64,000 nucleotides of DNA, taken from Halobacterium sp. CBA1132. Its GTDB lineage: Archaea > Halobacteriota > Halobacteria > Halobacteriales > Halobacteriaceae. Under the pieces are notes generated by a model. That model did no database searches, was not told where the DNA came from, and worked only from the letters and a program-made list of their open reading frames with translations. The stretch is from contig NZ_BCMZ01000003.1 of the NCBI RefSeq assembly GCF_001485535.1, positions 1 through 64,000 on the forward strand. Direction: 5' to 3'. How positions within the stretch are numbered: the stretch's first letter is position 1; every line of letters begins with the position of its first letter. This document shows positions 49,988 to 58,336 of this stretch, in pieces. The position numbers and the translations under genes were made by a program.

Positions 49988-50263
49988 ATGTACGACTTGA
50001 CTGCCTTCCAGCGAGATATCCTCTACATCGCTGCTGGCTTCGACAAACCGCACGGCCTCGCCATCAAAGACGAACTTGAGGACCACTACGAATCCGAGGT
50101 CAACCACGGCCGCCTCTACCCCAACCTCAACAAACTCGTTGACAAGGGCCTGCTTGAGAAAGAGAAGAAAGACGGCCGAACAAACAGCTACACACTAACC
50201 GGCCGAGGCGAACGCGAAATCCAAGCCCAAGAAGAGTGGGAAGCCCAGTACATCGAAGACTAG
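49988..50263 (+). CDS. PadR-family transcriptional regulator
   Basis: The 91-residue protein has the PadR winged helix: LTAFQRDILYIAAGFDKPHG, LAIKDELEDHYESEVNHGRL, YPNLNKLVDKGLLEKEKKDG and the wing YTLTGRGEREI. Small haloarchaeal PadR proteins of this size often control nearby genes or plasmid functions. The start at 49988 gives the usual length. A shortened relic with similar upstream DNA (AGCCAATCAAACT) is at 55983-56154. Confidence 0.85.
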   Translation: MYDLTAFQRDILYIAAGFDKPHGLAIKDELEDHYESEVNHGRLYPNLNKLVDKGLLEKEKKDGRTNSYTLTGRGEREIQAQEEWEAQYIED

Positions 50264-50525
50264 CTACACCCGAACGAAACCATCCCGGCAGACCGTCAGT
50301 GAAGGAGGGTGGGCGGTCGGTGGGTGCTGGTGCGGGCCTCACGCTCGTGGCGAATTGTGTCCGGGTTCTCAAGGTAGTTCAGGAAGTGGCCGGGTGTTGG
50401 CGTCTCCTCGATGATTTGGTTGTGGTTCGCGTTCCAGTGAGTGTCGATACTTGTTGAGGGTGGTTGTGAGTTGAGTTCTAGGATTTGTTTGGATGGGCGT
50501 TGGGGGTGGTTTGAGGATGGTGGAA

Positions 50526-50542
50526 TACTTCGAAGGCGGTGG
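50526..50542 (+). other. ORB-like repeat upstream of orc1/cdc6
   Basis: TACTTCGAAGGCGGTGG here resembles the three repeats downstream of the gene (TACTTCGAAgACGGTGTG in consensus). It lies about 160 bp before the cdc6 start; the surrounding 436 bp (50264-50699) hold no other feature that I can support. Confidence 0.5.
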
Positions 50543-50699
50543 CATAGTTTTATAGAATCGGATGCAGCAATGAAGGATATGCGAAGTGAGGAGTCCATCC
50601 GCGTCGGCTACGCAACGGCCAACGAGGACGAACCAACGTGTAACACCACGAACCGCTCAAAGCACGCCGACCAACGTCTCGCGGTGGAGGCGTCGACAG

Positions 50700-51586
50700 A
50701 TGACTGAACCGGCTGACACTGACAACGACGACTCCGAATCCACGCAAGAAGCGGACAGCGAAGCCTCGTTATCTGTCCGTGAGATGGTTCAACAGGTCGG
50801 CAACCAGTCAGTGTTCAGGAATCGCAATCTGGTTGAACCGGACACCATCATCGACCGGGACCGAATCGTCGGTCGTGATGACCAACTGAAAGCAGTTGTC
50901 TCGAATCTCCGCCAGGTTCTGAACGGAAATCGCCCCCCGAATCTCCTGCTTTACGGTCCTGCAGGAACGGGTAAATCACTCATCTTTGATGCGGTCACCC
51001 GTCAAATCAAGGACCTCTCGAAAAACCAGGGGGCATAACTTTGGGACGCTCCGGATTAACTGCCAGAATCTCCGGAGTCTCGACGAAGCCGTCTACGCAC
51101 TGGTTCGAGAAGCAGCGGACGACCTCGGTGAAACCGTCGGCGTACCCCGGAATGGTGTCTCAACGAACGAGAAGTACGATCGACTGTATGATCTCTTGGA
51201 TAATGGGTACGGTTCGGTGGTCTTCGTGCTTGACGAGATTGACTTGTTGACGGGGCGGCGGTCATCAACATTTGACTGCTCCTTCGCGGGTGGCGTATGC
51301 GGTGTATCAGTATGTGGCGGATATACTTGATGCGAATGCGCGAACTCGGGAGACGTTCAATAACTATGTTCGGGAGATTGGGACGTACGGGCAGCTTAAT
51401 CACGAGCGGAAGAGTTTGGGTGGGAAGAGTGGTGGTGGGATGTATTTGAAGTATGAGTTTAAGCGTGATCCGGCGGAGATTACGGCACGGTTGAAACAGG
51501 ATAACCGGCTGCAGGAGTTGGGGGAGCGAGAGGAGGAGGTGAAGGAGGTGGTTCGGGCGCAGTGGCGGGAGTTCGTACAGGAGTAG
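50700..51586 (+). pseudogene. Orc1/Cdc6 replication initiator, broken
   Basis: The 5' part has an acidic head, then RDRIVGRDDQLKAVVSNLRQ and Walker A LLLYGPAGTGKSLIFDAVT. Near 51030 the frame shifts; the next part has the middle of the AAA+ domain with GYGSVVFVLDEIDLLTGRRS (Walker B DEID). After that a large piece is missing: only the end of the lid and the winged helix remain (DILDANARTRETFNNYVREI, HERKSLGGKSGGGMYLKYEF). A working protein is about 400 residues, so it cannot function as is. It probably once served the origin beside it. Confidence 0.85.
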
Positions 51587-51654
51587 CAGGCATTAGAGGA
51601 TTAGACACCGTTGTTGGTGTGTTTCTAGGAAAGTAGGGGTGGGAATAGGCGGAC

Positions 51655-52065
51655 CCCCACACCGTCTTCGAAGTATCTTTGCAACGTTGCGCAGGTGTGC
51701 GTGGGGCGGTTTGGGAGTTTTCGGTCTCCCGAACGTCAGCAAGACGAGATCCCCGAGAACAGCTGATGCGTGTCAGACACCGTCTTCGAAGTATAATTCC
51801 GGGCTAATAAGCCGAAAGAGAGGGTTTGGACAGAACTAAGAGAATAAAGAGCAAGGAAGTCATGAAACTACTTCCTTGCTGACTACCCATTACGGATTCT
51901 GTTACACCCACACCATATTAAATCACCCGTTTAATATATACGAAATAGAACACTCGCGCCTTAGCTATTCACTCCACTAACTACGGCACAATTCACCATT
52001 ACCGGCTCTCTCTCAAGATATTCCGCAACCACAGGACCCCAATGATACTTCGAAAAACGGTGTGG
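51655..52065. other. Candidate replication origin with ORB-like repeats
   Basis: Three long repeats of TACTTCGAA-(n)ACGGTGTG occur at 51655-51675 and 51776-51793 (minus orientation) and 52046-52065 (plus orientation, with one extra base). The outer G-rich ends point away from the AT-rich stretch 51795-52045, which is typical of the unwinding region. A fourth, weaker copy is at 50526-50542. The cdc6 gene beside it supports the call. Confidence 0.65.
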
Positions 52066-54274: not shown

Positions 54275-54658
54275 ACCGGTTATCCAACCGGGTGACCAAC
54301 TGGGGTTGGGTCTTCCGAAAGTTATGGAAAATCTTTCGGAAGGTGGAGGTATACGTGGAGATAGGATCCGGATTAATGTGTGCAGTAACGATTGGGGAGT
54401 CCGTTCCTACAGTTGCTACCTCGAGTCGCTCACAGACGTGTCTCGCAACTAGTGTCTTCCCCGTCCCGGTTTCACCCTACTCCTGGACATTATCTGGGAT
54501 GCTATTTGTCCGCATTTTTCGGAGGTTCTTCGCCAAGAACGTAATGTGATTGTCTTGGCCGACAATTCGATTGGCGTCAGGAACGTTATCATCTCGAGAA
54601 ACCACGGTTTCTCAAAAATATCTGATTCGTCTTCCACATCCCCCTCATCGACATTCAA
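54275..54658 (-). pseudogene. Second Orc1/Cdc6 relic
   Basis: On the minus strand a short acidic head (MNVDEGDVEDESDIFEKPWF) is followed in a shifted frame by NRIVGQDNHITFLAKNLRKM, a stop (VQE-stop) and Walker A GETGTGKTLVARHVCERLEV. It then runs on to STFRKIFHNF. It is the first third of a Cdc6/Orc1 protein and is dead. It faces the membrane protein gene. Confidence 0.7.
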
Positions 54659-54763
54659 AATCTCGTCGACGGTTGTTTGCGTGGAATCGTTGTTTGGTAT
54701 AGACTGACAATCCCCTCATTCACATATAGGTTACCCGCCCTCGGTGTGATTGAGTTCTCCACC

Positions 54764-56462: not shown

Positions 56463-56950
56463 CCCTATACGTTGTCATCCTTTATCATTTGGGTGGTAAT
56501 ACATTAAATATTCCCTGCGTGATTCTCATGCATGCTGTCTTGGCAATTCTCCTAGCGTGACCGTCAGGTTCTCGCCGTGTAAGTCCCGATCAACTGGCGA
56601 CTCGATGGAGTCTACCCAGTCAGCCGGTGTATCCGAAAGCCTGCATTCCCGCAATTCCAGAACGAGTATTCGGAGAGGGGAGCCAATACGTTTATAATCT
56701 CCCGCAGCACAGGTTCAGATGTCGCTGGCCGATGGAAGCAGTATTGTCGTTGAGGGCGGCAATCATCACGGCTGACATACCGTAGCCAGCGACTCGCGGC
56801 GTTTCGCCACTCCTGCCTGTGGAAGTCGATACGACTATACTCTCGCACAAGAGCTGATGTTGCGAAGATGGTTCTATGATGCACAGGTTTCACTCCTAAC
56901 CATCCTGAAAGAAGTATCTGAGAGCTACTGAACTCGCCCTTCTGGGAAAC
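56463..56950. other. Stretch without a convincing gene
   Basis: No frame here looks like a protein; the only longer frame (56612-56893, minus) has a composition unlike the neighbours. The DNA probably belongs to the ends of the transposase relic that follows. Confidence 0.3.
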
Positions 56951-58336
56951 CTATCGGAATCCGTTCAGAACTCCGTAGAGAAACCGGCGTTCAGGACAAC
57001 GGCACCGCTCACGAGCGAGCAAGCCCAGAGAAAACGAGGGGGTAGTCCGGCGGATCGAGACCGTAACTCTTCTTGCGAACGTCAAAAACGAGTTCGCGGT
57101 AATCGCCGGTTCGTCGCCGACCTCGTCGTCCATCTCCAGTTGCACGAGGATGTCCACGAGCCGCCAGCAGTTGTACAGCACGCAGGCGAACGCGAAGTTG
57201 AAGTACCGGAACCGGTGGTCAGGGCTTTGCGTCTCCGCGAGGAACGTCTTCAGCTTCCGAAATGCGTTCTCGACGCCACAGCGACGCTTGTAGCGCGCTA
57301 TCAGCCGTCCAATCTGGTGTTTCATCTCTCGGTCGTCCTCGGGGTTGACGTCCACCCACGGGGAAATTCGTCTCGAAGGGCATGGTCGTCGCTTCGACCC
57401 TCGCCGGCTCCTCGATCTCCTCTTCTTCGGCAACCTCGTCGAGTAGGTTGCTCAGCGGCGAATCTCCGTTACGACCCTCTGACAGCGGAGTCGTGTCACC
57501 GACGCCCTCGAAGTCCTCAATGAGCTCCTGCCGAATCGTCACGTCCGTTCCGTCGTCGCCCTCTTCGCGTTCCCACTCGCGCTTCGGGAGGTAGACCGCC
57601 TTCCGCGTCGGCCTGTCGTCAAGCCGCTCCTGTTCGACTACGTCGAAGTCTCGGCCCTGACTGGCGAGCTTGGCAATCTGGTGTTCGTGGTCGCTGCTGG
57701 ACCGCACCACACCGGGATTGAGGTAGTGGACGTCGTGGTCGTTGAAGGTGTCTTTGACGCCGTCGTTGGCGAATTCGTGTCCATCAGCACGAGATTCAGC
57801 CCGGGGACGATGTCGGTGGCGTCCTCAAGGAGATTGTCTACGAGGTCTTCGTGCTTCCGGCCACGGGCGACCGGGATGGCGTCGAGGATGAGCGGGACGT
57901 CGTGGCCGACGAGCTTGATGACCGCCCACTGGAAGAACGGGATGTCTTCGCCTTTGTAGCCGAGTAGTCACGGTTCCTGACTTCGGCCGTTGCTGTCGCG
58001 GGTGACCTTGCCGCCTCACGGGCTTCCTTTCGTGATGTCGATGGCGGCCATCTGCTTGCGCCCCATCTTGTCCCTCGATTTCGCCCGAGCAACGAGCGTG
58101 CGGGCGGTTTCTTGGAGCAGAGTGTGGATGCGCTCAACGCCGAGCGTGCGCGTCCGAAGCCGGTGGGAGTCGCCTGAGGGCGTCCTTACTGCGGGTCGTG
58201 TCCTCGGCGAAGGACTGCGCGCCGTCGTTCGGGTGCATGTCGGTCCGCATCCCGAGGCACGCCTGCTGTTCCCAGAACGAGCCCTCCGGGATGGAGGCGT
58301 TGCTGGCGCGGTCCAGCCGGAAGCAGTCCTCGAAGA
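56951..58336 (-). pseudogene. DDE transposase, dead
   Basis: Pieced together from the minus strand: SIPEGSFWEQQACLGMRTDM, MGRKQMAAIDITKGSP with the first Asp, GHDVPLILDAIPVARGRKHE, LNLVLMD with the second Asp, YLNPGVVRSSSDHEHQIAKL, and RYKRRCGVENAFRKLKTFLA with the Glu, then FNFAFACVLYNCWRLVDILV. Two TGG codons have become TGA (near 57965 and 58015) and there are frameshifts near 57780 and 57360. The family is an IS4-like DDE type from haloarchaea; I cannot name it more precisely. Confidence 0.75.

Follow-up and report, generated by a model that had tools for sequence, protein, structure and literature searches.

What becomes of a plasmid replication origin when the gene for its initiator protein breaks? 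This question is raised by a locus on contig C3 (120,973 bases) of Halobacterium sp. CBA1132, an archaeon whose genome of 3.01 Mb is assembled in four contigs. The stretch of DNA analyzed here, termed the window, comprises positions 1–64,000 of C3. At 50.5–52.1 kb it contains an orc1/cdc6 initiator gene in pieces, accompanied by origin recognition box (ORB) repeats. An earlier note on this DNA had left two options, namely that the origin is dead or that it uses an initiator from elsewhere, and it is the first that is favored here. The locus is probably a decayed Orc1/Cdc6-type plasmid origin of the family of Haloarcula marismortui plasmid pNG500 that has fallen silent, with the 121-kb plasmid replicated instead from an origin at C3:88.6–92.3 kb. 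The likeliest course of events is that the origin became redundant and was abandoned. Its size, together with synteny to a plasmid of Halobacterium DL1, is the reason for treating C3 as a plasmid; an overlap of the contig ends, looked for as a sign of circularity, was not found.

The ORB cluster and its intact relatives

Four ORB sites, in the order + − − +, surround the broken orc1/cdc6 gene and an AT-rich core (Table 1). The earlier note had described four ORB-like repeats, two in each orientation, around an AT-rich stretch and the initiator gene, and the four copies are real. Two details need correction: the 52045 ORB contains an extra base, and the upstream side of the gene keeps only the promoter-proximal ORB, the distal upstream ORBs being gone. 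When the 19-mer ATACTTCGAAGACGGTGTG is searched without gaps and with up to three mismatches, the window yields three matches, compared to a mean of 0.00 in 100 dinucleotide shuffles, none of which reaches three. In the whole 3.01-Mb genome the same search yields four matches, three at the origin locus and a weak one at C3:68279, and the reversed 19-mer, used as a control, yields none. The 52045 ORB is missed by the ungapped search because it is one base longer, and a search with its own pattern finds only this ORB itself. A scatter of the repeats over unrelated places, which had been named beforehand as grounds for giving up the idea of an origin, was not seen within the genome. The ORBs end in CGGTGTGGGG (51658), CGGTGTCTGA (51776), and CGGTGTGGGTG (52045), with a G tract that is short and broken.

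The core, presumed to be the unwinding element, has an AT content of 56.4% compared to 43.7% for C3, and 1.6% of the 250-base windows of C3 are equally AT-rich; its AT-richness is real but modest. It contains an inverted repeat, ATATTAAA/TTTAATAT, at 51915–51937. Judged by eye, an inverted repeat of the form ATTAAA...TTTAATAT is common to the cores of the relatives, and its loop is shorter in the window. At the other end of the locus, a TATA-like stretch (50548–50555) follows just downstream of the 50525 ORB, which has counterparts in the TTACTTCGAANNNGGTG sites that immediately precede the gene in pNG500, in Halobacterium sp. TGN-42-S1, and in the genome G011 discussed below. This ORB is probably also an autoregulatory operator.

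Haloarchaeal orc/cdc6 origins have been defined by inverted ORB repeats in an intergenic region directly beside orc1/cdc6 (PMC3528665), and two such origins have been predicted on pNG500 itself (PMC3528665). The window has inverted ORBs in the intergenic region beside its orc1/cdc6 gene and an AT-rich region between them. The same ORB occurs on both sides of an intact gene in pNG500 (L007), pHsi204 (L008), Haloarcula amylolytica (L049), and TGN-42-S1 (L025, L051), and Haloarcula vallismortis (L050) has a matching downstream ORB set and an intact gene. In these relatives, three to five ORBs lie upstream, the last of them beside the promoter, and the gene is followed by two or three inverted ORBs, an AT-rich core, and one direct ORB. 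The core measures 248 bases in four Haloarcula copies and 243 in TGN-42-S1, even though the stretches that separate the ORBs align poorly in other respects. The window has both marks of the pNG500 type: its ORBs follow the word ATACTTCGAAGACGGTGTG, and the inner ORBs enclose a core of about 245–250 bases. Because the ORBs and the layout are common to intact relatives, the locus is best read as an origin module of the pNG500 family and not as a chance cluster, which agrees with the archaeal origin proposed in the earlier note. Judged from sequence, it is a true origin module of this rare plasmid family, which is defined by the shared ORB and the orthologous gene.

The gene fragments point to the same family. 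They are 64–75% identical to P0002, the intact Orc1/Cdc6 of pNG500 (WP_049938488.1) that serves as the comparison reference, while nearly all other plasmid homologues among the matches listed reach about 60% or less. In a collection of genome contigs, the ORB pair pattern occurs at three loci, each with a matching gene. In a collection of viral contigs, neither the ORB pair nor the exact 19-mer was found (0 matches each), and no virus there carries pNG500-type ORBs.

In the intact state, the initiator would use its winged helix and AAA+ domain to bind the ORBs. The AT-rich core behind the gene would be opened between two inward-facing groups of ORBs, and MCM would be loaded there. The initiator would also repress its own gene via the promoter-proximal ORB. 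In the present state, the initiator lacks both the sensor part of its AAA+ domain and its reading frame.

Table 1. Coordinates of the features discussed (window positions unless another plasmid is named)
Feature	Position	Strand	Remarks
PadR-family regulator	49988-50260	+	adjoins the dead origin on its upstream side; genes like it occur on many haloarchaeal plasmids
Promoter-proximal ORB, ATACTTCGAAGGCGGTGGC	50525-50543	+	3 mismatches to ATACTTCGAAGACGGTGTG
N-terminal fragment of orc1/cdc6, 112 residues	50700-51038	+	74% identical to P0002; Walker A kept; TIGR02928 score under the cut-off, which is usual when only a fragment is left
GGGGG run	51029-51033	+	4 G in pNG500; the +1 frameshift ends the N-terminal fragment
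Middle fragment, second frame	about 51022-51265	+	75% identical to P0002 residues 99-190; Walker B kept
Joint of internal deletion	51262-51275	+	about 160 codons gone; exact breakpoint uncertain by a few bases
C-terminal winged-helix fragment, third frame, 104 residues	51272-51586	+	64% identical to P0002; Cdc6_C, PF09079, 27.9 bits (cut-off 25.1)
ORB	51658-51676	-	exact match to ATACTTCGAAGACGGTGTG consensus
ORB, inner left of core	51776-51794	-	1 mismatch
AT-rich core	51795-52044		250 bases between inner ORBs; presumed unwinding element
Inner right ORB, ATACTTCGAA-AAACGGTGTG	52045-52064	+	one extra base between TTCGAA and ACGG
Remains of second orc1/cdc6, first third, residues 1-124	54700-54330	-	frameshift at 54590
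Type B DNA polymerase (polB) scraps	55145-54941	-	polB accompanies the second orc1/cdc6 type in relatives
ISH7-like insertion sequence	about 56850-58000		other haloarchaeal plasmids carry copies 77-81% identical to it
Orphan ORB pair, pNRC200	325282, 325316 (L120 5011, 5045)		about 35 bases apart
Orphan ORB pair, pHS2	L124 5011, 5045		about 35 bases apart
Orphan ORB pair, pSTJ003	L122 5014, 5049		about 35 bases apart

The broken gene and the initiators that remain

The orc1/cdc6 gene is indeed frameshifted and partly deleted, as had been noticed at the outset. It lies in three fragments in three reading frames, and an internal deletion has removed P0002 residues about 190–349. The frameshift and this deletion of about 160 codons leave the ORBs without an intact adjacent initiator. 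The lost part comprises sensor 1, the lid with sensor 2, and the beginning of the winged helix. The recognition helix of the C-terminal fragment is nearly unchanged and still resembles that of pNG500.

Selection on the gene was assessed by a three-way comparison of the window, TGN-42-S1, and pNG500 over the gene fragments, in which the changes unique to each sequence were counted at codon positions 1/2/3. The dN/dS ratio (nonsynonymous to synonymous substitution rates) was also computed, and because synonymous sites are saturated and dS was often not computable, only the codon-position counts were used. Unique changes number 39/22/51 in the window (41 amino-acid changes), compared to 23/11/70 in TGN-42-S1 (17 amino-acid changes) and 16/12/61 in pNG500 (15 amino-acid changes). 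The window differs from each of the two intact genes (Fisher p = 0.0016 each), which do not differ from one another (p = 0.88). Relaxation is strongest in the winged-helix fragment, with 19/9/16 compared to 9/3/25 and 4/6/25 in the intact relatives (Fisher p = 0.0009 against both pooled); for the remaining two fragments combined, p = 0.043. By these counts the gene is under relaxed selection, and its decay has been under way for some time.

The earlier note had proposed searching the genome for an intact Orc1/Cdc6 that shares the binding helix; run on the whole genome, this search finds six intact homologues of P0002 and no intact initiator of the pNG500 family. They are located at C3:89178–90491 (59% identical), C2:174802 (49%), C1:2521193 (38%), C1:1439444 (31%), C1:2398908 (30%), and C2:163104 (27%). 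The closest, hereafter the resident Orc1/Cdc6, has its own ORBs, TTACACTTCGATGACGGGGGG and variants, on both sides of its gene and inverted around a core of 325 bases with 54% AT. Its recognition helix and wing read TRETYVKYVKE..RGGGMYM, compared to TRETFNNYVRE..GGKQGGGMYL in the pNG500 type. The gene at C2:174802 is accompanied by GAACACTTCGATAGAGGTGTGTG. Since the initiator has been lost and the genome holds no substitute of the same specificity, the origin at 51.9 kb would be silent. The resident gene belongs to a complete second origin at C3:88.6–92.3 kb, and synteny with the DL1 plasmid extends across 89–113 kb. Given the intact gene, the paired ORBs, and this synteny, it is probably from here that C3 is replicated.

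The remains of a second orc1/cdc6 gene and of polB lie 3 kb from the first dead gene. Relatives of this orc-polB module are found in H. hubeiense pSTJ002 and Haloprofundus halobius, and ORB remnants of its own type are present at 54762 and 54800. With these remains, the region 50.5–55.2 kb holds two abandoned replication modules.

Fate of the family in other genomes

The ORB was searched, with at most one mismatch, in 392 genomes of the order, among which the genome studied here is labeled G000, TGN-42-S1 is G006 (its contig 5 being NZ_JAJQQZ010000005.1), and the pNG500 genome is G200. It occurs in nine. In five of the nine (G006, G091, G177, G200, and G217) an intact gene of the family lies adjacent, and in the other four the gene is broken (G000) or absent (G002, G005, and G273). 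In a tenth genome, G011, the gene is reduced to its first half and interrupted by stop codons, and its promoter ORB falls below the survey threshold. In G217, the same origin is found twice on contig C3 (9971–11895 and 104923–106845), the second copy being frameshifted. This second ORB set, at 105 kb, was not counted as a separate origin: going by its spacing, the duplicate probably arises where contig ends overlap and errors were left uncorrected.

Contig 27 of G273, a presumed Haloarcula genome that groups with G200, has a pNG500 backbone with flanks that are 93–94% identical. The module itself has been swapped for another orc1/cdc6 gene, 44% identical to P0002, that comes with TTTCATTTCGAAAACGGGG sites (L088 10277–13100), and two pNG500-type ORBs are left at the breakpoint. 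As in the window, pNG500-type ORBs have outlasted their gene; unlike the window, G273 has a replacement initiator with its own TTTCATTTCGAAAACGGGG sites.

ORBs without a gene are found in a further setting. An orphan tandem pair of exact ORBs lies behind a MarR-like gene on H. hubeiense pSTJ003 (G002) and on the H. salinarum plasmids pNRC200 and pHS2, and one orphan ORB unit lies behind a MarR-like gene on an H. noricense plasmid (G005; L123 5014). A further single ORB is found in G002, at C4:76073. No cognate initiator was found for these orphan ORBs, and those initiators of the same genomes that were inspected rely on different repeats. Between pNRC200 and pSTJ003, the two ORB units are identical over all 48 bases, whereas the flank differs at 21 of 128 positions (Fisher p = 0.0012) and the neighboring gene at 34 of 342 (p = 0.013 against the ORB units). 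This conservation may reflect constraint, or it may reflect homogenization of a tandem repeat.

Alternative explanations and comparison with known systems

The origin could still be active if it were driven in trans, either by the resident Orc1/Cdc6 or by the initiator of another plasmid. The ORBs of the two origins have a common core (ATACTTCGAAGACGGTGTG compared to TACACTTCGATGACGGGGGG), and this similarity makes cross-recognition by the resident protein possible, but unlikely. In H. hispanica, a cis location is reportedly not required for activity: each origin tested there depended on its co-located cdc6, though the protein could act in trans, and the origins were specifically recognized by their own Cdc6 (PMC3936714). 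The last observation stands against a trans-driven origin in the window, as do the differences in the resident recognition helix and wing, the base gained by the inner right ORB, and the confinement of each ORB type, with the resident ORBs at the resident gene and the broken type, save for one weak match, at this locus alone in 3 Mb. We therefore consider such activity unlikely. It is very improbable that the winged-helix fragment has been retained as a small DNA-binding protein that serves to repress or mark the ORBs. Its recognition helix is nearly unchanged and its open frame of 104 residues starts at a TTG, but the deletion has removed the beginning of the winged helix, the fragment is the most relaxed of the three, and on the codon-position counts a retained small protein was rejected. 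Least credible, and barely so, is that the cell has an unbroken gene whose apparent lesions are errors of sequencing or assembly. The +1 frameshift does lie in a run of five G, a typical error site, and the frameshift at the contig end of G217 looks like an error of this kind. However, the relaxed codon-position pattern extends over the fragments, and an internal deletion of 0.48 kb with divergent sequence at its joint is not a base-calling error.

The ORB cluster might also be kept by selection as an incompatibility, or decoy, locus that titrates the initiator of incoming pNG500-type plasmids. Titration has a precedent in H. hispanica (PMC3936714), and the persistence of orphan ORBs without a cognate gene on pNRC200/pHS2, pSTJ003, and the H. 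noricense plasmid is in keeping with such a role. Beyond the precedent, its support is the conservation of the pNRC200 and pSTJ003 ORBs above that of their flanks, and here one species pair is a thin test, and tandem copies could be homogenized by conversion. Moreover, an indel has already altered one of the four ORBs in the window, and the distal upstream ORBs have been lost. A decoy is thus quite unlikely. If it were real, the window cluster and the ORB pairs on pNRC200, pSTJ003, and their relatives would exemplify plasmid exclusion by means of a dead origin, which would be a new use for one. Among the papers listed by a literature search, none dealt with this locus or with orphan ORBs as decoys.

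Several observations weigh against a silent origin at 51.9 kb and an active one at 88.6–92.3 kb. Three ORBs and the geometry of the core are still in good shape, and a trans-acting Cdc6 can drive origins in H. hispanica (PMC3936714); together these mean that silence is not proven. The codon-position test rests on only three sequences with saturated synonymous sites. The GC skew, computed across the whole 121-kb C3, wanders, and neither origin coincides with a clear turning point. Finally, a TnpB-type gene (IS200/IS605-like; C3:91061–92287, L015 11061–12287) interrupts the upstream ORBs of the origin presumed to be active, at a site that spans about 100 bases in DL1 compared to 1.4 kb on C3. 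On the other side stands the same fate met elsewhere by members of the family, as seen in the gene remnant of G011, the swapped initiator of G273, and the orphan ORBs of G002 and G005.

Read as a decayed and silent origin, the locus is of value because it catches a plasmid origin midway through its loss, with the initiator dead, the binding sites still readable, and a second origin that has apparently taken over. The graded series from intact origin to gene remnant, swapped initiator, and orphan ORBs only offers material for testing how archaeal replicons change their origins, and for asking how long ORBs outlive their initiator.

The window can be compared most directly with its intact relatives. 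It has in common with the pNG500/pHsi204 origin the ORB word, the promoter-proximal ORB, the paired inverted ORBs after the gene, the core of about 248 bases, and the single opposing ORB. It differs in its broken initiator, its missing distal upstream ORBs, an inner ORB that is one base longer, and a 5′ leader that is longer by about 110 bases. The origin on contig 5 of TGN-42-S1 has the same layout, there with five ORBs upstream and four downstream, and its intact protein is 84% identical to that of pNG500; unlike the window, it has the ORB CGGGGTG instead of CGGTGTG and an intact gene.

Among described cases, disrupted haloarchaeal origins such as the oriC3-cdc6D locus of H. hispanica are close to it. 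Haloarchaeal origins located in variable regions have been described as continually arising and being destroyed (PMC4441112), and since such turnover is already on record, the window would belong to a known kind of event. Like oriC3-cdc6D, it presents an acquired origin inactivated in a variable region, as one of several gains and losses (PMC4441112). Unlike that locus, where a transposase disrupts the origin (PMC4441112), the window shows an initiator deleted in part and frameshifted, and its ORBs remain.
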